Part shown: positions 4,096 through 27,511 of the stretch, in pieces | Layout of the letters: every line of letters starts with the position of its first letter | Numbering within the stretch: position 1 is the stretch's first letter | Source of the DNA: a virus | Reading direction: 5' to 3' (one strand) | Virus record (IMG/VR): IMGVR_UViG_3300042485_000802 | Span: 1 to 34,278 of that record | DNA length: 34,278 nt | The notes under the pieces: generated by a model | Databases searched by the model: none | Seen by the model: the letters and a program-made list of their open reading frames with translations, nothing else | What the model was told of the DNA's origin: nothing | Made by a program: the position numbers and the translations under genes

Positions 4096-4302
4096 TTATG
4101 TATCCTTTAGTTCGTCCGCTGCTGCATTGAATTTATTCATAAATGTTTGAATAACCCAAACTGCAGTTTCTCCAGCATTAGCAGCCATTGCTTTTGAAGA
4201 TTCTTCCGTCCTATCTTCAATGGCAAGACCATTGTACCATTTTTGGTACAACTCCTCGCCAATTTCTTTAATAATTTCTTCTAATACTGTCATGTTAGCC
4301 AT
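4096..4302 (-). CDS. Small helical protein, unknown
   Basis: 68 aa, ATG at 4302 overlapping the protease stop by 8 nt; a second in-frame ATG at 4293 is also possible. Predicted almost entirely alpha-helical, charged at both ends, with a central AMAANAGETAVWVIQTFM helix. No Cys and no known motif. Likely translated by coupling to the upstream subtilisin-like gene. Function unrecognised; the context would allow a structural accessory protein or a protease partner. Confidence 0.6.
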   Translation of the reverse strand: MANMTVLEEIIKEIGEELYQKWYNGLAIEDRTEESSKAMAANAGETAVWVIQTFMNKFNAAADELKDT

Positions 4303-5425
4303 TTATTTTCTTGTTCCAATCTGCTTTAATCTTAGCAAGCTTTTCAGCAGCAGCCTTGATTTCTAGTTGGTACTGTGCCTCGGCTGCAGCAATTTCTTTA
4401 GCCGATTCTGCTACAAGAGCAGCCTTTGCCTCAGCAGCCAATTGTTCTGCGGTTTTAACCACAGGCTTTGGTGTAGGAGTTGGTGCTGGGGCCTGTGCAA
4501 CTATTGCTGTTTGAGAAGACATAATAAGCTTTCCCTCTTGTCCTCTTGCACCCTTGATTATCTTAGAATTTGCATTCAGCATACCAATAACTTCATTATA
4601 TGAAGCGTTAGGATTTGAAGATTTAATTCCAACCCACACTGCTGCTGCAACTTGTGTTGAAATTGAAGACCCCATTGCATTTCTAATTTGTCCTCCTGGA
4701 ATCATAACCTGCATGTTTCCAGTAGCATAGTAATCTAATCTGTTTTTGTCAAAATTAGAATTGTTATCTATTTGCTCATATTGATCAGACATTCCAATTG
4801 ATATTGAATCATTAATGCATCCTGGCCACGATAGTCTTGATAGGTCTCGCATATTTCCTGCTGGAAAAAATGAAGGGATTCCTGCTGTGACCAATGAGGA
4901 TAGCATGCCACGCAGAGTTGGAGTTGCAGGGCAATAATCTGTTGCTGTAGTTAGGATTGCATGGTTAGCTTGTGACATGGAAACCGCTTGAATGTTAAAC
5001 TTTTCTTTATTATCTAGTACCCACTTGAGGGCCAATGATACTCCGACTTCACCAGTGGACTGTCTCATTCCAGTTGTGGTATTTCCAATAATTCTAACAA
5101 ACACGATTTTAATATTTGGATTAGTTCTAACAGCAACGGAAGCCATTTGCGTTCCATGATCAAATCCATTTGAAGAAATCATGTTAGAAGGAAGAACCGC
5201 TGAACCAGTTCCTTCCATAAACTTCTGTCCGTTTGGACATGAGGCCCATTCTAACACACAAACTTCATGTGCAATCTTATCTTTAAAGATTGGCAACGAA
5301 GTGTCTAGAGCTGTGTCTAGAATAGCTAATGTAGGGGCTTTTGGTTCCGCCTTTGCCTCTACAGCAAAAAATAAAGTAAATAGTAGTGATGTTGCAGATA
5401 CTGCACTTATTAGTTTTTTATTCAT
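4295..5425 (-). CDS. Secreted subtilisin-like (S8) serine protease
   Basis: 376 aa. The signal peptide (MNKK, hydrophobic about 5-22, AxA site near residue 26) is followed by an S8 domain with the triad Asp37 (LAILDTALD), His90 (GFDHGTQMA) and Ser254 (GSSIST); oxyanion Asn191 is in FPAGN. The Ser motif is GSSIS rather than the usual GTSMA. Six Cys outside the signal peptide (56, 63, 165, 203 among them) could form disulfides, fitting an extracellular place. The tail (about 310-376) is a Pro linker then an Ala/Glu/Lys coiled coil, perhaps an attachment to the virion or cell surface. It is preceded by a leaderless promoter and heads the unit running to 1075. Substrate unknown; could be a tail-borne protease. 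Confidence 0.85.
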   Translation of the reverse strand: MNKKLISAVSATSLLFTLFFAVEAKAEPKAPTLAILDTALDTSLPIFKDKIAHEVCVLEWASCPNGQKFMEGTGSAVLPSNMISSNGFDHGTQMASVAVRTNPNIKIVFVRIIGNTTTGMRQSTGEVGVSLALKWVLDNKEKFNIQAVSMSQANHAILTTATDYCPATPTLRGMLSSLVTAGIPSFFPAGNMRDLSRLSWPGCINDSISIGMSDQYEQIDNNSNFDKNRLDYYATGNMQVMIPGGQIRNAMGSSISTQVAAAVWVGIKSSNPNASYNEVIGMLNANSKIIKGARGQEGKLIMSSQTAIVAQAPAPTPTPKPVVKTAEQLAAEAKAALVAESAKEIAAAEAQYQLEIKAAAEKLAKIKADWNKKING

Positions 5426-11560: not shown

Positions 11561-11743
11561 CTACTCTGAATCCTTATTTCTGATTGGGCTAGTTGCTACC
11601 CATAAAGCAGTCGTGGCTATAATTCCATATCCAACAATAGTCTTTGCACTTCCGTCCAGAACTACCCAAGCAATAAACATTCCAAGAAGGGTCCATGCTT
11701 GGTCAACCATATCTTTTAGGATATTCTTTATTATTCTTACCAT
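11561..11743 (-). CDS. Small holin-like membrane protein
   Basis: 60 aa, ATG 11743 with AGGAGG at 6 nt, overlapping the upstream large gene by 7 nt. Two hydrophobic helices (about 15-32 and 36-52), TLLGMFIAWVVLDG and IVGYGIIATTALWVA, with charged ends RIIKNILKD and RNKDSE. Size, topology and location in the lysis region fit a class II holin, but the other small membrane protein at 10928-11338 competes for that role. Confidence 0.6.
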   Translation of the reverse strand: MVRIIKNILKDMVDQAWTLLGMFIAWVVLDGSAKTIVGYGIIATTALWVATSPIRNKDSE

Positions 11744-14247
11744 TTTCTTCCTCCTCGTGAACCTGGTGAATTAGCTCCTGATGAGCCTCCCCCAGAATTT
11801 CCTCCGCCTCCTGTGCCACCTCCAGTGGCTCCTCCTGTGGCAACTGCTGCTGCGTTAATTGCTGCACCTGCTGCGACAACTGTTGCTACAACCATTTCTG
11901 TTGCCTCTTCTCTTTCTTCATCTGACATATCGGCGCCTATATTGCTTAGTGCTTCAATAGCCGCTCCAGGGTCTGAAAATGCTGTTGATAATAACTCTGC
12001 AGGATTTTCAAGCAATACCAAAGATGCTGCTACCTCTGCTGTAATAACAACTTCGTTACCATTTTCATCCTGCCTTACTTCAACTGGAGTAGATGCAGGT
12101 AAGTCTTTATATTCAATTCCAGCTTCTTGAATTTGTTCTTTAGTTAAAGATTCTCCAGGAACAATAGACTCTACGAGTGCATCTGCTATCAATTCCTTTT
12201 CTGAATTAGTTAATTTTCCATCTTCAGATAAAGCATCTGCAAGGTTTTGAACTTCTTCTGCAGTTACTTCACCATCACTTGCTAATTCATTTAAAATATC
12301 TTCTGCTTCCTCTGTATCTATTTTACCATCAGATAATGCGTCATCAACAGATTCTTCTACTGCTTCTTCTGATCCCGTCACAGGCTCTGTGTCAATTGGT
12401 TCTGTCTCCACAGGCTCTGTGTCAATTGGTTCTGTCTCCACAGGCTCTGTGTCAATTGGTTCTGTCTCCACAGGCTCTGTGTCAATTGGTTCTGTCTCCA
12501 CAGGCTCTGTGTCAATTGGTTCTGTCTCCACAGGTGTGGTATCAACTGGTGTGGTAGTTACTGGTGTAGTGTCTACAGGTGGCACGACTACTGGTGTAGT
12601 GTCTACAGGTGGCACGACTACTGGTGGTTCAACTGGTGCAGGTGGAGTAGGGGCTGGCAAGGGCGCTGGTGCAGGAACTGCATCAATTACTGTTTGTGCT
12701 GCTGCTACTATTGTAGGTGCAGTAGTTACTTTTTCTACGGCTGTAGAAACAATTGCAAGGTCTGCCACCTTTTCAGTTAATGTTGTGCTTGCTGCTGCTA
12801 ATGCCGTTACAGTATTTTGTGAAACAGTTGCAATAGGTGCAATAACTGTATTTGTATTTGCTGTATTTGTTGCAACAATAGCAGTAACTGCTGAGTTTAA
12901 TGTAGCAATTTGTGCATTTGCTGTATCAATTGCTGCCAAGACTGCTGCATTGTCTGGATCAGGGGTAGGAGTAAATGCAGCGCCTTGACTAATTGTTCCA
13001 GTAAATCCCGTAGTAGTACTTGTATTACTAATATTTGTTACGGGACCATTTGTAGTCTCTCTTACGTTAAATCTAGCACCATTTGGGATTGGTCCAGTCA
13101 CGCTTACATCTGCTTGCCAGGCACCATCTGAAGGATTAACATCCGCATTAAATCTAACTTGAGTCATTTGTGTTTCTGCTGTCTGCAAAGGATAAACTCT
13201 AAGATCCCAAGCAACGCTAAGGGTGTTTGTAGTTGTTGAATATGTAATTCCAGATCCATTACTCCAGGTAGTCCAGTCATATCCTGCTATAGAAATAGAA
13301 GGCGCATTTGGAGTAGAATAATAGTTTGCACCTTCATTTACACCAAATGTAATAGTGGCATTGGACCCGACGTAAACATTATTGTATGTGACTCCGCCCA
13401 TCTGTAAATTAAATGGAAGGTTCATTCGAACACCAGCGTCATCTACATTAGATAAAACGTTTGTGGTAGTGCCAATGGTTGCCGCTAGAGCATTGACTGC
13501 ATCTTGAGCGTTATTAATTGCTACGTTTGCTTGAGTTAATTGTGTTTGAGCCTCTGTCCGTGCAGGTGTTACTGCTGCCACTGCCGTAGTTGCTGTAGCA
13601 ACTGTTGTAGTGGCCGTATCTATTGCTGTTTGTGCTGATTGAACTAAAACTGTGGCCGTTTCTGATTGGGCAACTTCTGTTGCAATTGCTGTGGCTACTT
13701 GTGCAACTGTGGTTGGGGTCTCTGTCATTAATGGAGTTGCTGTTGCTATCACAGTGGCTACTGCAGAATCTACAGTAGTAACGGCTTGCGTTATTACTGC
13801 TTGTGCCGCTACAACCTCTGGTGTTTGGGTTGTGGCTGTTGCTGGTATTGCGGCTACAGCCTGTGTAACTGCTGTTACCGTTGAAGTAATTGTTTGAACA
13901 ACTGTTGTTGCAGTTTCTACTGCTGAAGATACATTTGATACTTCTGCTACCGCCGTAGTTGCTGCTGCTACGGCCGTAGTTGCTGCTGCTACGGCAGCGT
14001 TAGACGCTGTTACTGATTCAACTGCAGTGGCTATGGTTACTGTTGCTGTATCTGATGCTGCTGCAGCTTGTGCAACTTCTGTAGTTGCTGTTGCAATTGC
14101 TGTGTTAACTGCTTGCTGTGCAGGGCTTACTACAACTTGCTCTGCAGGTGCTGGTGGCTCATTAGCATTAGCAAAATTAGGACTAAAAAGGAAAAGCCAG
14201 CCGATTATAAAAAGGCTGGTTAAAAAATACTGTAGCTTTCTAGTCAA
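11737..14247 (-). CDS. Large secreted Ala/Thr/Val-rich repeat protein
   Basis: 836 aa, TTG 14247 with AGGAG at 8 nt. A signal peptide ends near residue 29 (FANA). Then: an Ala/Thr/Val helical region (30-255); a beta-rich domain (about 265-430) opening DDAGVRMNLPF and containing VYVGSNATITFG, as in nidogen/adhesin-like modules; more Ala/Thr/Val sequence; a Pro/Val/Thr stretch with five 10-residue PVETEPIDTE repeats (about 570-625); three DG-containing EF-hand-like segments (about 635-690: DGKIDTEEAEDIL, DGEVTAEEVQNL, DGKLTNSEKEL); and a Gly/Ser-rich tail. Low Cys. It looks like an extracellular or virion adhesin. Its position before the lysis genes fits a late gene. Function inferred only. Confidence 0.8.
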   Translation of the reverse strand: MTRKLQYFLTSLFIIGWLFLFSPNFANANEPPAPAEQVVVSPAQQAVNTAIATATTEVAQAAAASDTATVTIATAVESVTASNAAVAAATTAVAAATTAVAEVSNVSSAVETATTVVQTITSTVTAVTQAVAAIPATATTQTPEVVAAQAVITQAVTTVDSAVATVIATATPLMTETPTTVAQVATAIATEVAQSETATVLVQSAQTAIDTATTTVATATTAVAAVTPARTEAQTQLTQANVAINNAQDAVNALAATIGTTTNVLSNVDDAGVRMNLPFNLQMGGVTYNNVYVGSNATITFGVNEGANYYSTPNAPSISIAGYDWTTWSNGSGITYSTTTNTLSVAWDLRVYPLQTAETQMTQVRFNADVNPSDGAWQADVSVTGPIPNGARFNVRETTNGPVTNISNTSTTTGFTGTISQGAAFTPTPDPDNAAVLAAIDTANAQIATLNSAVTAIVATNTANTNTVIAPIATVSQNTVTALAAASTTLTEKVADLAIVSTAVEKVTTAPTIVAAAQTVIDAVPAPAPLPAPTPPAPVEPPVVVPPVDTTPVVVPPVDTTPVTTTPVDTTPVETEPIDTEPVETEPIDTEPVETEPIDTEPVETEPIDTEPVETEPIDTEPVTGSEEAVEESVDDALSDGKIDTEEAEDILNELASDGEVTAEEVQNLADALSEDGKLTNSEKELIADALVESIVPGESLTKEQIQEAGIEYKDLPASTPVEVRQDENGNEVVITAEVAASLVLLENPAELLSTAFSDPGAAIEALSNIGADMSDEEREEATEMVVATVVAAGAAINAAAVATGGATGGGTGGGGNSGGGSSGANSPGSRGGRKW
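12381..12530 (-). repeat. Five perfect 30-bp tandem repeats
   Basis: Five identical copies starting at 12381, 12411, 12441, 12471 and 12501, within the coding region of the large surface protein; each encodes a 10-residue Pro-Val-Glu-Thr-Glu-Pro-Ile-Asp-Thr-Glu unit. Identity at synonymous positions points to recent slippage or recombination. No spacers. Confidence 0.95.
12561..12620 (-). repeat. Two perfect 30-bp tandem repeats
   Basis: Two identical 30-bp copies at 12561-12590 and 12591-12620, next to the five-copy array and in the same reading frame, encoding Val/Pro/Thr-rich linker sequence. Same period, different sequence. Confidence 0.85.
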
Positions 14248-17262: not shown

Positions 17263-17336
17263 TGCAACAAGTAGGACTTGAACCTACGATTACCGAATTA
17301 TGAGTTCGGGGCTTTAACCAACTAAGCTATTGTTGC
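17263..17336 (-). tRNA. tRNA with CAT anticodon (elongator Met or Ile2)
   Basis: 74 nt cloverleaf: acceptor 7 bp GCAACAA/TTGTTGC; D-stem GCTT/AAGC; anticodon stem CCGAA/TTCGG with loop CTCATAA (anticodon CAT); T-stem GTAGG/CCTAC with loop TTCAAGT; discriminator A. CCA is not encoded. It lacks initiator features (no run of three G-C pairs next to the anticodon). If C34 is lysidinylated it reads AUA as Ile, otherwise AUG. Its own promoter and first 23 nt lie inside the carbamoyltransferase reading frame. Confidence 0.9.
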
Positions 17337-18759
17337 CAGTTAGTATATTATAACTATAATGTACCTGCCAGTCAATAGCATCTTGCTTATCATTTAATAA
17401 AGGCTGCCCTTTTATATTTAAACTTGTATTTAAAAGGACTGGGCAGCCAGTATCCCAATACCATTTTCTTAAAAGCATGTGTAGCCCTGGGTGTTGATCC
17501 CTATTGACAGTTTGAACTCTAGATGTTCCATCTTTATGAACAACTGAAGGTATCTTGTCTGGCTGCTTGCACTTTACTGTATACTGCATGTATGGGGATG
17601 CAAAGTCCATATCAAACCACTCACTTGCAAACTCTTCAAGCACAACTGGTGCAAACGGTCTAAACTGCTCTCTTTGTTTAATTGTATTAACTTTATCTTT
17701 AATATTGGGATCCCTAGGGTCAGCTAAAATACTTCTATTCCCAAGAGCTCTTGGTCCGTATTCTGCTCTGCCAGTTGCAACTGCTGCTATCTTATTAGTT
17801 TTTAATTCTTCAAGTATTTTATTTACTGGGTACTCTCCGCCCATATCGTAACCAAGATACGGCCCTTTCCAGTCAATATGCTTTCCGTATAGGGCTGCTG
17901 CTGCCCCAAGAGATGAGCCAGCATCGCCTGGGTTTGGCATGATCCAAATATCTTTAAATATATTCCATAGCAATGTATTTGCAGATGAATTTAAGGCGCA
18001 TCCGCCCATAAAAACAAGGTTTGATTTTCCAGTTAATTTTTTTGCCATTTGCATAAAATCAATTAGTCTTTGCTCATATACAACTTGAACTGCTGCAGCT
18101 ATATCAAACTTGTCTTGTTCATTAATTGGAAGACCCCAATCTGTTATTCCTTGATGAAAATTATATGATTGCTCATGATACTTTGGAAAATATGAATCTA
18201 CTTCTTTATAGTATCTTTGCCAGTCTCCATATGCAGCCATGCCCATCATAATATACTCTTCTTGATTAGGCATAAGTCCAATTAATTTAGTAAATGCTGA
18301 GTAGAATAGTCCAAAACTGACTGGGTAGTTCTGCTTAAACTTTAAGCTAATTTTTTCGCCTTCCCCTACCCAAATAGTTGAAGTGTTATATTCCCCTATG
18401 GCATCTAGCACCACTATTGCTGCGTCTGTAAAACTACTAGTATAATAACCAGCGCATGCATGAGAATAGTGATGGCTAAATGATTTCCTAGGGATTGATT
18501 TTATATCAAACCTAGGCTTCCAGTCCCCAGAACCACCCTTTATAAATAGCCTAGAGGCCTTTAGGAGCGGTTTTTCGTAGTAGGCTATAGCATCAGGTAC
18601 CCCATACGACAAAGCATCCCCAATTAGGCTGTCGTTGACGTACCAATCATTTTTTTGCTTACTATATCTTTCTGCATGACCAGCAAATAATATTTCTCCA
18701 TCTTTAATTAAAGATACTGAGGCGTCGTGTGATGTTTCATTTACTCCCAGAATTATCAT
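17314..18759 (-). CDS. NodU/CmcH-family carbamoyltransferase
   Basis: 481 aa, ATG 18759, ATGA overlap with the upstream gene. N-terminal ASKHA-type domain GVNETSHDASVSLI (5-18) and the His motif SHHYSHACAGY (about 94-104); VVLDAIGEY; FMGGCALNSSAN (about 250-261); C-terminal carbamoyl-transferase domain with GPRALGNRSILADPR (about 335-350) and CPVLLNTSLNIKG (about 440-452). The enzyme transfers a carbamoyl group from carbamoyl phosphate through carbamoyl-AMP to a hydroxyl of a sugar, nucleoside or antibiotic. Full-length apart from a tail somewhat shorter than the 550-600 aa usual. The final codons overlap the tRNA gene. Confidence 0.88.
   Translation of the reverse strand: MIILGVNETSHDASVSLIKDGEILFAGHAERYSKQKNDWYVNDSLIGDALSYGVPDAIAYYEKPLLKASRLFIKGGSGDWKPRFDIKSIPRKSFSHHYSHACAGYYTSSFTDAAIVVLDAIGEYNTSTIWVGEGEKISLKFKQNYPVSFGLFYSAFTKLIGLMPNQEEYIMMGMAAYGDWQRYYKEVDSYFPKYHEQSYNFHQGITDWGLPINEQDKFDIAAAVQVVYEQRLIDFMQMAKKLTGKSNLVFMGGCALNSSANTLLWNIFKDIWIMPNPGDAGSSLGAAAALYGKHIDWKGPYLGYDMGGEYPVNKILEELKTNKIAAVATGRAEYGPRALGNRSILADPRDPNIKDKVNTIKQREQFRPFAPVVLEEFASEWFDMDFASPYMQYTVKCKQPDKIPSVVHKDGTSRVQTVNRDQHPGLHMLLRKWYWDTGCPVLLNTSLNIKGQPLLNDKQDAIDWQVHYSYNILTGNNSLVG
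17347..17375 (-). promoter_or_regulatory. Promoter for the tRNA inside carbamoyltransferase gene
   Basis: -35 TTGACT at 17375-17370, 17 bp spacer, -10 TATAAT at 17352-17347. Predicted start at about 17340, leaving 3-4 nt before the tRNA 5' end. All within the last 20 codons of the carbamoyltransferase. Confidence 0.75.
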
Positions 18760-22307: not shown

Positions 22308-22642
22308 TTGGAATTTGCTTTAGCAATTTTAAGTAAGATTAAATAACCTATCATATCGTCAATATCATTATCTCCAGCAAACCCTTTGCCATTCTTAATT
22401 CTATTTATTTTATCATCAATACGAATTTTAATTTGCTCTTGATTGTCCGCCTGAGAAAATATACGAATTGGGGTCAAAGCTGAGTCTCCGTAGGATATAT
22501 TCTTTTCAATCAACATTTGTGCTATTTCAAGACACTCTACAATTATCTTATTTCCAGATGGTGCATCTGTTGCCATTAACTGTAAATCTGTAACCCACAT
22601 TTGATACCCGTTTTCTTTATTTGGATATGATGTAAATCCCAT
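22304..22642 (-). CDS. DUF1599 / nucleotide-modification-associated-like protein
   Basis: 112 aa, ATG 22642 (TAATG overlap). Key stretch EKNISYGDSALTPIRIFS followed by EQIKIRIDDKINRI and DIDDMIGYLILLKIA matches the small all-helical family named DUF1599 or nucleotide modification associated domain 1, related to MazG-like/dUTPase helical folds: Glu, Asp and Arg residues form the presumed metal site. It may act on modified nucleotides, but its operon partners handle sugars. Moderately sure. Confidence 0.65.
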   Translation of the reverse strand: MGFTSYPNKENGYQMWVTDLQLMATDAPSGNKIIVECLEIAQMLIEKNISYGDSALTPIRIFSQADNQEQIKIRIDDKINRIKNGKGFAGDNDIDDMIGYLILLKIAKANSN

Positions 22643-23304
22643 TATTCCATCTCCTTATATAACTGTTTAAGTCCTCTTAGCGTTCCAATATCCATATATT
22701 GTCCGCCTGGTCTTACCGCCCGAATGTTAGCACCCTTTGCAATCCATTCTTTTAATTGTTTTCCTGGATGATCTAGTGATGTATCTATGTATCTTATCAT
22801 ATTCTTTCGGAATAGCATAGTGCCCCACATATCTGGGTAATCACAATTGTCTACCTTATCTTCTGACTCAATTACTTTATCATTAGAAACCAAGACCTGA
22901 CCAACACGGCCTTTTATAGATTCTCCGCATTCCCAAATTCCCAGAACAAGGTCTGCGGTATTATCTTTAAATAAAGGCTTATATATATTTCCAGGTGCGT
23001 TTAATATATATGTATCTGGCATACCAATTAGCACCGTATCATTATACTCACCGACCATAAACTTTACTGCATCTGACATTGTTGATGGCTCACGAACAAT
23101 TAGTTTAATATTCATGTCCATGTTTTGAATAATTGGAACCCACTCAGCTCTTGTAGAAACTCTAACCTCATCACACACTTCAAGCATCTGCTCTACGTGC
23201 CACTGCAAAAGAGATCTTTCATCTGATATAGGCAAACAAAATTTAGGGATGCCTCCAATTCTAGAAGCTTTTCCTGACGCTGGCAATACTCCAATAGTAG
23301 ACAT
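22642..23304 (-). CDS. Sugar-phosphate nucleotidyltransferase-like protein
   Basis: 220 aa from ATG 23304 (TAATG overlap with the glycosyltransferase); a longer TTG frame to 23316 is not needed. N-terminal signature IGVLPASGKASRIGGIPKFCLPI replaces the usual GGxGxRL...K but keeps the shape with Lys21; GMPDTYI holds the metal Asp; GTLRGLKQLYK at the end is typical (D-I-G-T). The family makes NDP-sugars (glucose-1-P or related). Together with the glycosyltransferase it may produce and attach a sugar to DNA, virion or host glycan. Confidence 0.7.
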   Translation of the reverse strand: MSTIGVLPASGKASRIGGIPKFCLPISDERSLLQWHVEQMLEVCDEVRVSTRAEWVPIIQNMDMNIKLIVREPSTMSDAVKFMVGEYNDTVLIGMPDTYILNAPGNIYKPLFKDNTADLVLGIWECGESIKGRVGQVLVSNDKVIESEDKVDNCDYPDMWGTMLFRKNMIRYIDTSLDHPGKQLKEWIAKGANIRAVRPGGQYMDIGTLRGLKQLYKEME

Positions 23305-24062
23305 TACTTTTCCCAATCGTGAGGATTAAATCCGTTAGGATATGATTCATTTACTCTAGGATCTTTTTTCCAAGCAATCCATCCCTCTTCTCTGTCGTCT
23401 CCCCAATATAGATGAACTACATCTCTGTCTAGGAGTCTTTTAGCATCTTCGCCATGGAAAATATAAACCTTATTATCTTTTAGGAATGGCATCTCAAGGA
23501 GCTCTGGTGCCCATTCATTAATGTGTTTTTGATACGGCTCTACACCAAGCTCACGGTATAGTGCATCAGTAAACATTTGAACATCAGTATAGTAATGAAC
23601 CATATGGTTGTGTTGAATGACTCCTTCAGAACATCTTTCAACACAAAGGTCTATGGCTGCCTTTAGTAAAGGGTGTCCAGCTTTAGCGGCAATCGTTTGA
23701 GTTGCTAGCCATGGAGTATCTCTTTCAATATCTAGGATCATATCGTACTCAGAGTTTAACCATGTGTCTACTGGAATCTTGCAATGAGTATCCATATCAG
23801 CATATATACCGCCGTGTATGTAAAGAATAGCAAATCTCCACAATCCAGCCTTCATTACTCCCAGAGGCAGGTTCACATACGTCTCGTATGTTTTTGTATC
23901 AAAGTGCTCCTTAAAGAAGTTTTCTCTGTCTTGTCCGCTCATGTATCCATGAGTCCATTCTGGATTTTGATAAGTCCATGTGCCTACGCTTTCTTTAGCG
24001 TAAGATGGCAATTCATCAAATGGTGTTTCGTAAGTCTGCCAAATCTTTTTTTCTATACTCAT
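23304..24062 (-). CDS. Glycosyltransferase with DXD motif (OCH1/Gly_transf_sug type)
   Basis: 252 aa, ATG 24062 with AAAGGAG. IPKxIWQT-like start KKIWQTYETPFDELP (5-19); LGVMKAGLWRFAILYIHGGIYADMDT (67-92) with the catalytic Asp89-x-Asp91. This retaining family transfers hexoses (mannose, galactose) from nucleotide sugars. No membrane segment, so cytoplasmic. In an operon with the nucleotidyltransferase downstream and a mini-HTH and oxygenase upstream. Confidence 0.85.
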   Translation of the reverse strand: MSIEKKIWQTYETPFDELPSYAKESVGTWTYQNPEWTHGYMSGQDRENFFKEHFDTKTYETYVNLPLGVMKAGLWRFAILYIHGGIYADMDTHCKIPVDTWLNSEYDMILDIERDTPWLATQTIAAKAGHPLLKAAIDLCVERCSEGVIQHNHMVHYYTDVQMFTDALYRELGVEPYQKHINEWAPELLEMPFLKDNKVYIFHGEDAKRLLDRDVVHLYWGDDREEGWIAWKKDPRVNESYPNGFNPHDWEK

Positions 24063-25382: not shown

Positions 25383-25647
25383 TTATTATGCCCCACAAAA
25401 TCTTTTTGCTTTCGTTATTTAAATTTTTTTCACAAGTAGAACATACAGATAGCTGGTTATATCTGCTTAGTTTAGTTTTGCAAAACTTACAAGATCTTTT
25501 TGCGCCGTTCTTGATTGCCTTTTTTTCATAATACTTTTCCATAATTTTACGATTTGTTGCAACCCTACAGCATTGCTCATTACAGTATTTTTGATTATGT
25601 GTTTTTGGCTCAAAGTCTTTTGCACATTCTATGTTTGAGCAAATCAT
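25369..25647 (-). CDS. Two-module zinc-finger protein (92 aa)
   Basis: 92 aa, ATG 25647. Module 1: CSNIEC (3-8) with YCNEQCC (about 21-27). Module 2: CKFC (about 54-57) with CSTC (about 70-73). A Lys-rich linker between them. Two zinc ribbons next to a resolvase and a Cas4-like nuclease suggest a DNA-binding accessory of recombination. Family unknown. Confidence 0.7.
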   Translation of the reverse strand: MICSNIECAKDFEPKTHNQKYCNEQCCRVATNRKIMEKYYEKKAIKNGAKRSCKFCKTKLSRYNQLSVCSTCEKNLNNESKKILWGIISELS

Positions 25648-26420
25648 ATTTTTGGAACCTCAAATTTTTCAATCTGAACAGTTCCAGTTTCCATAGACCA
25701 GCATGCATCTTTTGCTGGGCAGTACTTGCAAGAAGATGTCGACTTTGTAAAAGATCTCATTGGAAGATCGCCTTCTTTAAAGTTATCCCAAACCTCGCAC
25801 ATCCATGTAAAAGTATCATCAATAATCTTTTTATTTCTATCATTCATTACGACTGGTATGATGACAACTTCCTGCGTGTTTTTATTTTCATACAAAAAGA
25901 ATCCCTCTTTGGCATCAGTTAGCTTCATGTAAGTAAGAAGCTGTAGCATATGGTTTGCTGAGGACTTCATCTCTGCTTGACGGGTATCCCAAACCTCTTG
26001 CTTGGCGGTTTTGATTTCACCAATTATTGTTTCGCCATCCCATTCCATAACCAGGTCAATAAACCCTCTAATTGGTGGGTATTCGTTTTTAATTTCACGC
26101 TCTTCCTCAACAAAGTTAGGCATTGTCTTAATTAAATTTTGCAGTCTTTCGTGAGCCTGTGTACCCTGAGCCATATTAGCAATAGCAACAGAATCGTTAT
26201 CGTTAATAAACATAACTCCGCTAAATGCAAGATACCAATATCTAGGACAATTACCGTGTCCATACCCCAAAGAGCTTGGGCTAAAAGATGTTTTTGTTGT
26301 TACAGCATCTTCTCTTTTGGTTGCTAGGTATGCGTCATCAAGCATCTTGGCAAACACTTCTGGATCAAATTTACCAGAAGTTTTTTTAAACTTTAAGTTC
26401 TTAACGATATCTCTACCCAT
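25644..26420 (-). CDS. Cas4/RecB-like PD-(D/E)XK exonuclease with Fe-S Cys
   Basis: 258 aa from ATG 26420, overlapping the adenosyltransferase stop by 8 nt; the longer upstream frame is rejected. Catalytic set: His90 (TQAHERL), Asp122 (GFIDLVM), Glu135-x-Lys137 (GEIKTAK), then a helix with QAEMKSSANHMLQLLTY. The four Fe-S Cys of Cas4/AddB type are Cys58, Cys231, Cys234 and Cys240. Phage Cas4-like proteins act as 5' or 3' exonucleases in recombination with RecA; no CRISPR array or Cas1 is nearby, so a CRISPR role is unlikely. Confidence 0.85.
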   Translation of the reverse strand: MGRDIVKNLKFKKTSGKFDPEVFAKMLDDAYLATKREDAVTTKTSFSPSSLGYGHGNCPRYWYLAFSGVMFINDNDSVAIANMAQGTQAHERLQNLIKTMPNFVEEEREIKNEYPPIRGFIDLVMEWDGETIIGEIKTAKQEVWDTRQAEMKSSANHMLQLLTYMKLTDAKEGFFLYENKNTQEVVIIPVVMNDRNKKIIDDTFTWMCEVWDNFKEGDLPMRSFTKSTSSCKYCPAKDACWSMETGTVQIEKFEVPKI

Positions 26421-26910
26421 TGTTTGGCACCCACATTTTTTCTTTTCCTTTATTGTGATATCTAGCCATAACAAACAATAAGTCTGATAGACGATTTAAA
26501 TACTTAGCAATGTTTGGATTTACATTTTCTATCTTCCAAACCTCACGCTCTGCCCTTCTTACAACAGTCCTTGCATTGTGCAGTGGACCTGTTGGTAAAA
26601 CAAAAGATCTTAGAGGTTCTAGATATTCATTGTAGTCATCAATTACATTTTCTAAATATGTCACTCTGTTTTCAGATATTGCTATTGTTGGGGCCCCCGC
26701 AAGCTCTGCACCAAGATCAAATAAGTCGCTCTGAACTCTTTCAATAATATCATTATACTCATCTGTTGCCATTCCAATAGCAGAGTTAGCCTCATCTACA
26801 GCACCTATTGCTTCCATTACGGGGCTAGTCTTAGACACCCTTTCGTTATTAGCGTTAGAGGTTTGCCCATCGTCACCAGTTTTAGTATAAATTTTACTTA
26901 GTATTACCAT
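26413..26910 (-). CDS. ATP:cob(I)alamin adenosyltransferase, PduO/MMAB type
   Basis: 165 aa from ATG 26910 (AAGGGG upstream, TAATG coupling); a TTG frame to 26934 is rejected. Family signatures in order: KIYTKTGDDGQTS (6-18), EAIGAVDEANSAIG (34-47), LFDLGAELA, FVLPTG, ARTVVRRAERE (about 121-131) and YLNRLSDLLFVMAR (about 142-155). It attaches the adenosyl group of ATP to cob(I)alamin, making coenzyme B12 for radical enzymes such as class II ribonucleotide reductase. The Gly-Gly-x-Arg segment is NNERVSK. The gene lies between Cas4-like and a DUF4430-like secreted protein. Confidence 0.9.
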   Translation of the reverse strand: MVILSKIYTKTGDDGQTSNANNERVSKTSPVMEAIGAVDEANSAIGMATDEYNDIIERVQSDLFDLGAELAGAPTIAISENRVTYLENVIDDYNEYLEPLRSFVLPTGPLHNARTVVRRAEREVWKIENVNPNIAKYLNRLSDLLFVMARYHNKGKEKMWVPNNG

Positions 26911-27071
26911 TAATGACCCCTTAAAGAACGCCAAATATCTACTGCAATTTCATTAACTACAGATAAAGCAACAACTGTTATAAAAAGCTGAGCAATAACT
27001 AATATTGGAAAAGATTTATTCTTAACCTTTTCTTCTAATAATTCTACTTCTTCTAATAACTCTACGGCCAT
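26910..27071 (-). CDS. Small single-pass membrane protein (53 aa)
   Basis: 53 aa, ATG 27071 with AAGGAG; stop TAA overlaps the adenosyltransferase ATG. N-terminal acidic amphipathic helix MAVELLEEVELLEEKVK, then a membrane helix FPILVIAQLFITVVALSVV (21-39) and a short tail. Overlaps the DUF4430-like gene by 10 nt, so the three genes are one unit. A membrane partner of the secreted protein is possible, but nothing specific is visible. Confidence 0.7.
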   Translation of the reverse strand: MAVELLEEVELLEEKVKNKSFPILVIAQLFITVVALSVVNEIAVDIWRSLRGH

Positions 27072-27511
27072 CTTACTTCTCCTTTAGTAGAAAATACTAG
27101 GCCAAGGTGGTCTCCTGGTTCGACAAAAGTTTCATTAATTCCCTTTTGTGCCCAGCCCCATTCATTTCTTGGAAATGGCAAGGCCTGATTCTTTTTTACT
27201 AACACGGCCCAATATGCATTTTCTGGTGGCATGTCTTGGCATTTTTCAACACTGTTGTTGGGAAAATTATTTACTCTGCAGACAACAGCATTTCCATACT
27301 TTGCTGTCCCCTCTATCTTATATCCATTTGCTTTTAATAGGTCTAAAGAATTAACTTTACCACTAGCACTGACGCATTTCTTTTCTACTGTAGAATTATT
27401 TCCGTAGTCTACGTGTAGGTTAATGCACTCTGGTTGATTAGAATTTAAAACAAACAATCCTATTGCTGAGCCAATAAAAATAAACAAAAACATAATTCTT
27501 TTTTTAATCAT
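27062..27511 (-). CDS. Secreted DUF4430 / transcobalamin-C-like protein
   Basis: 149 aa, ATG 27511 (TAATG overlap). An N-terminal hydrophobic anchor (about 7-22) is followed by a beta-grasp-like domain: NSLDLLKANGYKIEGT, then GNAVVCRVNNFPNN, ENAYWAVLVKK, WGWAQKGI, VEPGDHLGLVFS. This series fits the ubiquitin-like DUF4430 domain, related to the C-terminal domain of transcobalamin/intrinsic factor and seen in Gram-positive surface proteins that capture B12. Cys29, Cys46, Cys78 and Cys90 may pair. Fits a B12 role beside the adenosyltransferase. Fold assigned by eye, so moderate. Confidence 0.6.
   Translation of the reverse strand: MIKKRIMFLFIFIGSAIGLFVLNSNQPECINLHVDYGNNSTVEKKCVSASGKVNSLDLLKANGYKIEGTAKYGNAVVCRVNNFPNNSVEKCQDMPPENAYWAVLVKKNQALPFPRNEWGWAQKGINETFVEPGDHLGLVFSTKGEVRWP

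Follow-up and report, generated by a model that had tools for sequence, protein, structure and literature searches.

A putative phage-borne module for cobalamin capture and activation in a viral genome fragment

Class II-like ribonucleotide reductase (RNR) genes are common in phages, but the route by which these phages obtain their coenzyme is poorly understood. Phages with class II RNRs have been described (PMC10547690 and PMC6775973, in the sections available to us), and the available text of PMC10547690 states that they have to infect hosts able to produce or modify vitamin B12 and that they may promote B12 uptake or production. Could a phage carry genes of its own for that supply? The question is raised by the virus record IMGVR_UViG_3300042485_000802, a genome fragment of 34,278 bases with 36% GC that was analysed over its whole length and is called here the window. 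An initial annotation had described three overlapping open reading frames (ORFs) at 26413-27511 as a phage module for B12 capture and activation. The three ORFs are indeed present on the minus strand, with the last two coupled by a TAATG, and we refer to them as SEC, TM and ACAT:

SEC, 27511-27062, minus strand: 149 amino acids; hydrophobic signal/anchor segment at the N-terminus, then a beta-grasp domain that is transcobalamin-beta-like (DUF4430-type) by predicted fold and profile.
TM, 27071-26910, minus strand: 53 amino acids; one membrane span judged by eye.
ACAT, 26910-26413, minus strand: PduO-type cob(I)alamin adenosyltransferase by family assignment, 165 amino acids from the ATG in TAATG.

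We consider this locus to be a phage-borne cobalamin capture-and-activation module, with a probability of about 0.8. The observation behind the initial annotation was confirmed and its interpretation is largely supported, B12 binding by SEC and the joint function being its predicted parts.

The enzyme was the clearest case. With its start taken as the ATG in TAATG (the mechanical ORF begins at a TTG at 26934), ACAT scored 171.1 bits against PF01923 (curated cut-off 24) and 153.9 bits against the NCBIfam model TIGR00636 (PduO_Nterm, cut-off 108.45), in agreement with its previous naming as a PduO/MMAB adenosyltransferase. Alignment with the PduO structure of Mycobacterium tuberculosis (2g2d, E 1.7e-31) matched the stretches YTKTGDDG, DEAN, SFVLP, RTVVRRAER and KYLNRLSDLLF. 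The motifs TGDxG, RxxER and NRLSDLLF, which we take to be the conserved ATP/cobalamin motifs of these enzymes, were present in alignments with 2g2d and 6wgs. ACAT belongs to the PduO-type ATP:cob(I)alamin adenosyltransferases, and its catalysis is predicted on these grounds.

SEC was more difficult to classify. No meaningful match was obtained by hmmscan with Pfam, PHROG or NCBIfam models, and a profile search of PDB sequences returned chance-level matches only. The resemblance of the 27062-27511 product to transcobalamin and DUF4430 proteins, previously noted by eye, was found in structure and profile comparisons. When SEC was first folded with phage rows alone the predicted local distance difference test (pLDDT) score was 62.9, yet the bacterial structure 3u7z and transcobalamin already ranked top; the AlphaFold2 model built with 14 bacterial relatives in the alignment reached 82.2. 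In a Foldseek search with this model human transcobalamin, its isolated beta domain (5no0) and 3u7z ranked first with probability 1.00, at E values of 1.6e-3 and above (none below 1e-3) and TM-scores of 0.49-0.55 by query length. VIA-align gave Z scores of 9.5-10.8 for the model against transcobalamin, haptocorrin, intrinsic factor and 3u7z (96-100 residues aligned, root-mean-square deviation 2.9-4.6), compared with 5.8 for the next unrelated chain. In HHalign, the SEC alignment including bacterial relatives matched 30 DUF4430 domains at 95.6% (E 1.3e-8 for that one comparison), while 60 column shuffles of the same alignment did not exceed 0.8%; phage SEC rows matched the bacterial relatives at 99.6%. 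Strands 44-47 and 51-58 of the model follow helix 33-39, an order compatible, without residue-by-residue superposition, with the beta-hairpin insert after the helix that the available part of PMC1796856 describes for the transcobalamin-like clade of SLBB (soluble-ligand-binding beta-grasp) domains. The same text describes transcobalamin as a toroid plus a beta domain, and short fish proteins of the transcobalamin-beta-type domain exist according to the part of PMC4350170 at hand. Four cysteines and the motifs MPP..AYWA and NEWGW were invariant across 15 aligned phage SEC forms. SEC is a transcobalamin-beta-like domain by modelled fold and profile, for which B12 binding is predicted; its hydrophobic N-terminus and cysteine, judged by eye, indicate that it is probably exported.

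Do cellular relatives of SEC occur in a B12 setting? A scan of genome contigs yielded 17 relatives, all from actinobacteria by record title, with Aurantimicrobium minutum at the top (35% identity), and relatives were found in 58 of the 198 genomes of the order of this species. From these 58 we chose 20 neighbourhoods of 12 kb each, favouring the stronger matches with enough flanking sequence, and searched them with queries from four loci (L141, L143, L146 and L149). All 20 matched the T-like, A and S-like genes of an energy-coupling factor (ECF)-like transporter in L141, ten matched MetH and nine a toroid-like gene, whereas the controls, 20 stretches taken from 16 of the genomes, had none for T, S, MetH or toroid and four weak ATPase matches. 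By Pfam, L141 contains CbiQ (25.7 bits, cut-off 25), ABC_tran and MetH domains; its S-like gene was named by position, having no Pfam, NCBIfam or PDB match, and the toroid-like genes match toroid families only below the cut-off. Cobalamin riboswitches were identified in two of 11 SEC-relative loci (ten of the 20 plus L141) and in none of 11 controls. According to the available part of PMC1796856, bacterial SLBB proteins encoded beside CbiO/CbiQ genes have been proposed to scavenge B12. As a separate observation, toroid-like and transcobalamin-beta-like genes are adjacent to each other, beside ECF-like transporters, in the actinobacterial loci L146 (6076-8753), L149 (6673-8468) and L143 (6229-8738); by analogy, such pairs are possibly a transcobalamin encoded by two genes.

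In a search across the class, 44 of 394 genomes were positive, and the best SEC matches, at 132-140 bits, lay in three actinobacterial genomes of 1.2 Mb, with the next match at 86. These three genomes, which we presume from their class and size to be Nanopelagicales (acI), are called host-like below. Their SEC genes (L271-L273) lie in 18-kb stretches of 41-44% GC and encode proteins 36-39% identical to the window SEC; in all three a cobalamin/adenosylcobalamin riboswitch is located 52-74 bases upstream of SEC. ACAT and an RNR match were each present in the three genomes. Two of their RNRs were classed, that of G563 as B12-dependent (1556 bits versus 859) and one of the two in G654 as class Ib. 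The SEC-like gene stands alone behind the riboswitch, with no ECF match beside it, in L271 (7980-8706), L272 (9353-10091) and L273 (9165-9885).

The grouping of the three phage genes was then established by comparison. Two backbone genes border them:

phrog_9818, 27855-27511, minus strand: upstream neighbour of SEC; PHROG of unknown function.
Cas4-like/PD-(D/E)XK exonuclease (phrog_1706), 25644-26420, minus strand: downstream neighbour, with its ATG at 26420.

The order of transcription on the minus strand is phrog_9818, SEC, TM, ACAT and the Cas4-like exonuclease gene. TAATG junctions join phrog_9818 to SEC (at 27511) and TM to ACAT, and overlaps of 10 and 8 bases are found between SEC and TM and between ACAT and the Cas4-like gene. 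The initial annotation had taken the overlaps as proof of a unit. The overlaps exist, but both flanking genes overlap their neighbours likewise, so that overlap alone cannot mark a three-gene unit and was dropped as an argument. We therefore compared 92 distinct related viral contigs (from the 80 top-ranked of 245 ACAT stretches, and 12 others that contain SEC). The trio was intact in 57 of them; in L074 another gene intervenes and eight contigs are cut by their ends. TM matches nothing in Pfam or PHROG, and in NCBIfam nothing with an E value below 0.07. Wherever this part was visible among the related contigs, TM was found only together with SEC, so that the two seem to be gained and lost jointly. 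The gene order is maintained down to about 50% SEC identity and in more than one genomic setting. The ratio of nonsynonymous to synonymous substitution rates (dN/dS), computed against the window genes with several saturated dS values, was 0.09-0.29 for SEC and 0.03-0.10 for ACAT (eight pairs with finite dS each). The SEC-TM-ACAT unit is accordingly defined by its kept order, its several genomic settings and a dN/dS well below 1. The backbone order of the window matches Streptomyces phage Gilson (Stanwilliamsviridae), and the window terminase is up to 63% identical to those of Streptomyces-type (Gilson-like) phages. In Gilson the phrog_9818 homologue adjoins a Cas4-like gene with no gene annotated between them, and the spot of the cassette is thus empty in Gilson-type phages.

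The initial annotation had also suggested a search of the genome for a class II RNR. None was recognised in the window, and such genes were found in its relatives. Twelve contigs from two other lineages, ten of the L116 type and two of the L104 type, have a class II RNR gene upstream of SEC; some of these contigs carry only its 3' part. The gap between RNR and SEC is 10-11 bases in the ten L116-type contigs; in L104 and L105 one gene, WhiB-like by eye, lies between. Since neither phrog_9818 nor the Cas4-like gene of the window type was found in these RNR-adjacent contigs, the trio occupies another genomic place there. The scan with TIGR02505 (ribonucleoside-triphosphate reductase, RTPR) covered two whole RNR proteins, L134 with 356.2 bits (cut-off 340.05) and L131, from a window-type relative, with 303 bits, below the cut-off and still its best family, together with an L104 fragment at 166 bits. 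The best PDB match of the L131 protein was RTPR (1l1l, E 1.9e-45), and 1191 records match this RNR. Nine of 15 long relatives contain an RNR match, seven of them above the family cut-off, and the other six contigs end before the expected place. The distance between the module and the RNR gene upstream of it is 60-71 kb in window-type relatives; G003 has the RNR gene 47 kb downstream instead, as would be seen if the genome were permuted. It may be added that the RNRs of L131 (1072-3006) and L134 (823-2859), one remote from the B12 module and one next to it, are 28% identical. Thioredoxins are known RNR reductants, and the window encodes one (PF00085, 737-1051) that is a plausible electron donor for the reductase.

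What would the host be? We looked at the relationships of ACAT in a tree with 32 bacterial rows, namely the 30 loci that scored best among 112 positive genomes (one of them host-like) and those of the two other host-like genomes; the bootstrap of this tree had not settled. Nine phage rows grouped with ten of the 32 bacterial rows, nine of these from genomes of 1.2-1.4 Mb (support 100/98), and the window-type ACATs formed a phage-only clade on a long branch (100/100). The L104-type phage ACAT is 75-76% identical to the ACATs of the three host-like genomes and the window ACAT 49-52%; a single origin of the phage ACATs remains compatible with this tree. The presence of WhiB genes in the window (PF02467, 7509-7853) and in L104 (WhiB-like by eye, 1074-1391) fits an actinobacterial host. 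We think that the host is probably a small, streamlined actinobacterium, and the phages are presumably freshwater ones. Planktophila is treated as relying on others for B vitamins including B12 in the part of PMC7527133 available, and in a collection of freshwater cultures auxotrophy for cobalamin was more frequent than that for any other vitamin (PMC12381374, likewise as far as available).

From the ACAT family, the SEC fold, the conserved gene order, the class II RNR that adjoins the trio in two lineages and the B12-linked surroundings of the bacterial relatives, all of them computed, we infer the following mechanism, in which export, B12 binding, coupling to a transporter, catalysis, host and phage benefit are all predicted. 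SEC would be exported and would expose its transcobalamin-beta-like domain on the outside of the membrane, with TM perhaps as its anchor or partner. The pair would increase how much B12 or other cobamide is captured for the uptake system of the host. In the cytoplasm ACAT would adenosylate cob(I)alamin with ATP as the donor, and the resulting adenosylcobalamin would be used by the class II ribonucleoside-triphosphate reductase of this phage group, providing deoxynucleotides for phage DNA; a B12-dependent reductase of the host itself could possibly use it too. The broader proposal, that the phage deploys its own transcobalamin-type surface protein and converts B12 for a reductase, thereby controlling the B12 supply in B12-dependent streamlined actinobacteria, seems to us rather more probable than improbable, and we hold it with less assurance than the module itself.

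Several results weigh against the proposed module. In hmmscan SEC gave no match to DUF4430 (PF14478), and the 15 phage members had only chance-level Pfam matches. The phage-only SEC profile reached just 34.5% against DUF4430 in HHalign, with 60 shuffles reaching 12.4%. The likeness to DUF4430 therefore stood in the predicted structure and in profile-profile comparison with bacterial relatives and failed with the Pfam model; PF14478 was also unmatched in eight genomes holding bacterial SEC relatives. Since SEC stays short of the PF14478 model, we do not assign it to that family. No RNR was recognised on reading the ORFs of the 34-kb window fragment, on which no RNR model was run. The contigs counted above are related and some are near-identical, so they are not independent. 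In 25 of the 92 contigs, plus L054 by reading, ACAT lies directly behind phrog_9818 without SEC and TM; at least 25 such contigs suggest that capture is optional and activation is kept. No cobalamin riboswitch was identified in the window or in 15 long phage relatives. A tblastn search of 124 viral loci and the window gave no toroid, ECF or MetH match, and the phage would thus need the uptake system of its host. In the three host-like genomes a search for the S-like gene of L141, for which they offered no positive control, found nothing, and the single CbiQ match, in G654, was below the cut-off. Finally, the SEC-bearing bacteria G016, G031, G248 and G317 have no ACAT, so that in bacteria SEC relatives pair with uptake genes and MetH and not with adenosylation; a general uptake role for the bacterial SEC relatives is in line with this.

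How else could the locus be explained? ACAT alone might serve the reductase, and SEC and TM might be surface proteins with a function of their own that happen to travel with it, for example in superinfection exclusion via a B12 receptor of the host or in blocking uptake by rivals. Many phages encode small membrane exclusion proteins. The joint absence of SEC and TM from the 25 contigs that keep ACAT would be expected of such a pair, as would a TM without recognised relatives outside these phages, but bacterial SEC relatives are found near cobalamin riboswitches and ECF-like transporters, and SEC, TM and ACAT stay together in several settings, also beside RNR, when pure exclusion would need neither ACAT nor RNR nearby. 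We regard this explanation as unlikely. A shade less probable still is that SEC scavenges another ligand, either a corrinoid precursor such as cobinamide, with ACAT adenosylating the salvaged corrinoid, or an unrelated vitamin. Varied ligands have been predicted for SLBB-type beta-grasp domains (PMC1796856, in the sections available), and the S-like gene of L141 has no library match, which leaves its ligand unassigned; against this, the riboswitch preceding the nearest bacterial SEC genes is of the cobalamin/adenosylcobalamin type in three of three cases, and MetH is a neighbour in ten of 20. That the three are ordinary passengers, host genes acquired without a selected function, strikes us as very improbable. 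Phages do acquire host genes, and the closeness of the L104-type ACAT to those of host-like genomes (75-76%) could be read in this way. However, the low dN/dS of both SEC and ACAT, the phage-only ACAT clade and a gene order kept down to about 50% SEC identity all speak against it. A module for cobalamin capture and activation remains the explanation that we prefer: the fold match, the conserved gene order and the B12-dependent RNR in relatives and in one host-type genome were all found.

Some other genes of the window were noted in passing. Carbamoyltransferase, MobA-like nucleotidyltransferase and DXD glycosyltransferase genes are located at 17314-18759 and 22642-24062, a putative exported subtilase (PF00082) at 4295-5425, and at 11737-14247 an 836-amino-acid protein rich in Thr, Val and Ala with PVETEPIDTE-type repeats.

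Each part of the module has known relatives; B12 scavenging by bacterial SLBB proteins has already been proposed and class II RNR phages are well described. A phage with both a transcobalamin-type surface protein and an adenosyltransferase was not found in the open-licence PMC literature, the available part of PMC2667541 contains nothing on these proteins, and the wastewater viral genes listed in the available part of PMC11183165 include cobA and cobS and no surface B12 binder. SEC had no tblastn match in 50,697 phage records. ACAT matched 15 of them, at 42% identity or less, with none found in Streptomyces or Mycobacterium phage records. Thirteen of these 15 are unannotated, bacterial-looking records of 2-34 kb, and the other two are 254-kb records of Acinetobacter phages; 12 matches in bacterial-looking records of 2-34 kb, labelled as Listeria, Enterococcus or Salmonella phages or as Bacteriophage sp., are probably host DNA. 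If the proposed role is true, extracellular vitamin capture joins the metabolic functions encoded by phages, and with a streamlined freshwater actinobacterium as host these phages would be linked to the B12 traffic of lakes.

Compared with known PduO-type enzymes (PF01923, TIGR00636, 2g2d), the window ACAT passes both curated cut-offs and its conserved stretches align, whereas it differs from the actinobacterial enzymes of about 190 amino acids in its length of 165 amino acids, its shorter loops and the coupling of its gene to SEC and TM. The modelled fold of SEC is that of the bacterial DUF4430-type proteins and of the beta domain in transcobalamin, intrinsic factor and haptocorrin, and SEC also has an exported-looking N-terminus and B12-linked bacterial relatives; in contrast to transcobalamin and DUF4430 proteins it has the phage-specific NEWGW and four invariant cysteines, and the toroid half was not found in the phages. 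Like the surface SLBB proteins encoded beside CbiO/CbiQ-type transporters, a comparison in which we include ECF-CbrT, the bacterial SEC relatives adjoin ECF-like T, A and S genes (20/20). The phages differ from those bacterial systems in carrying the surface component and TM, with no ECF gene found in the viral loci. Finally, the relatives of the window share RTPR-type class II RNR genes with the known class II RTPR phages, that is those of the virioplankton (PMC10547690) and the cobaviruses (PMC6775973), both as far as available, and Streptomyces phages. The available part of PMC10547690 only suggests that such phages may raise B12 uptake or production, whereas dedicated genes are present here, and with uptake-type and activation genes adjoining RNR in two lineages that idea becomes directly testable.

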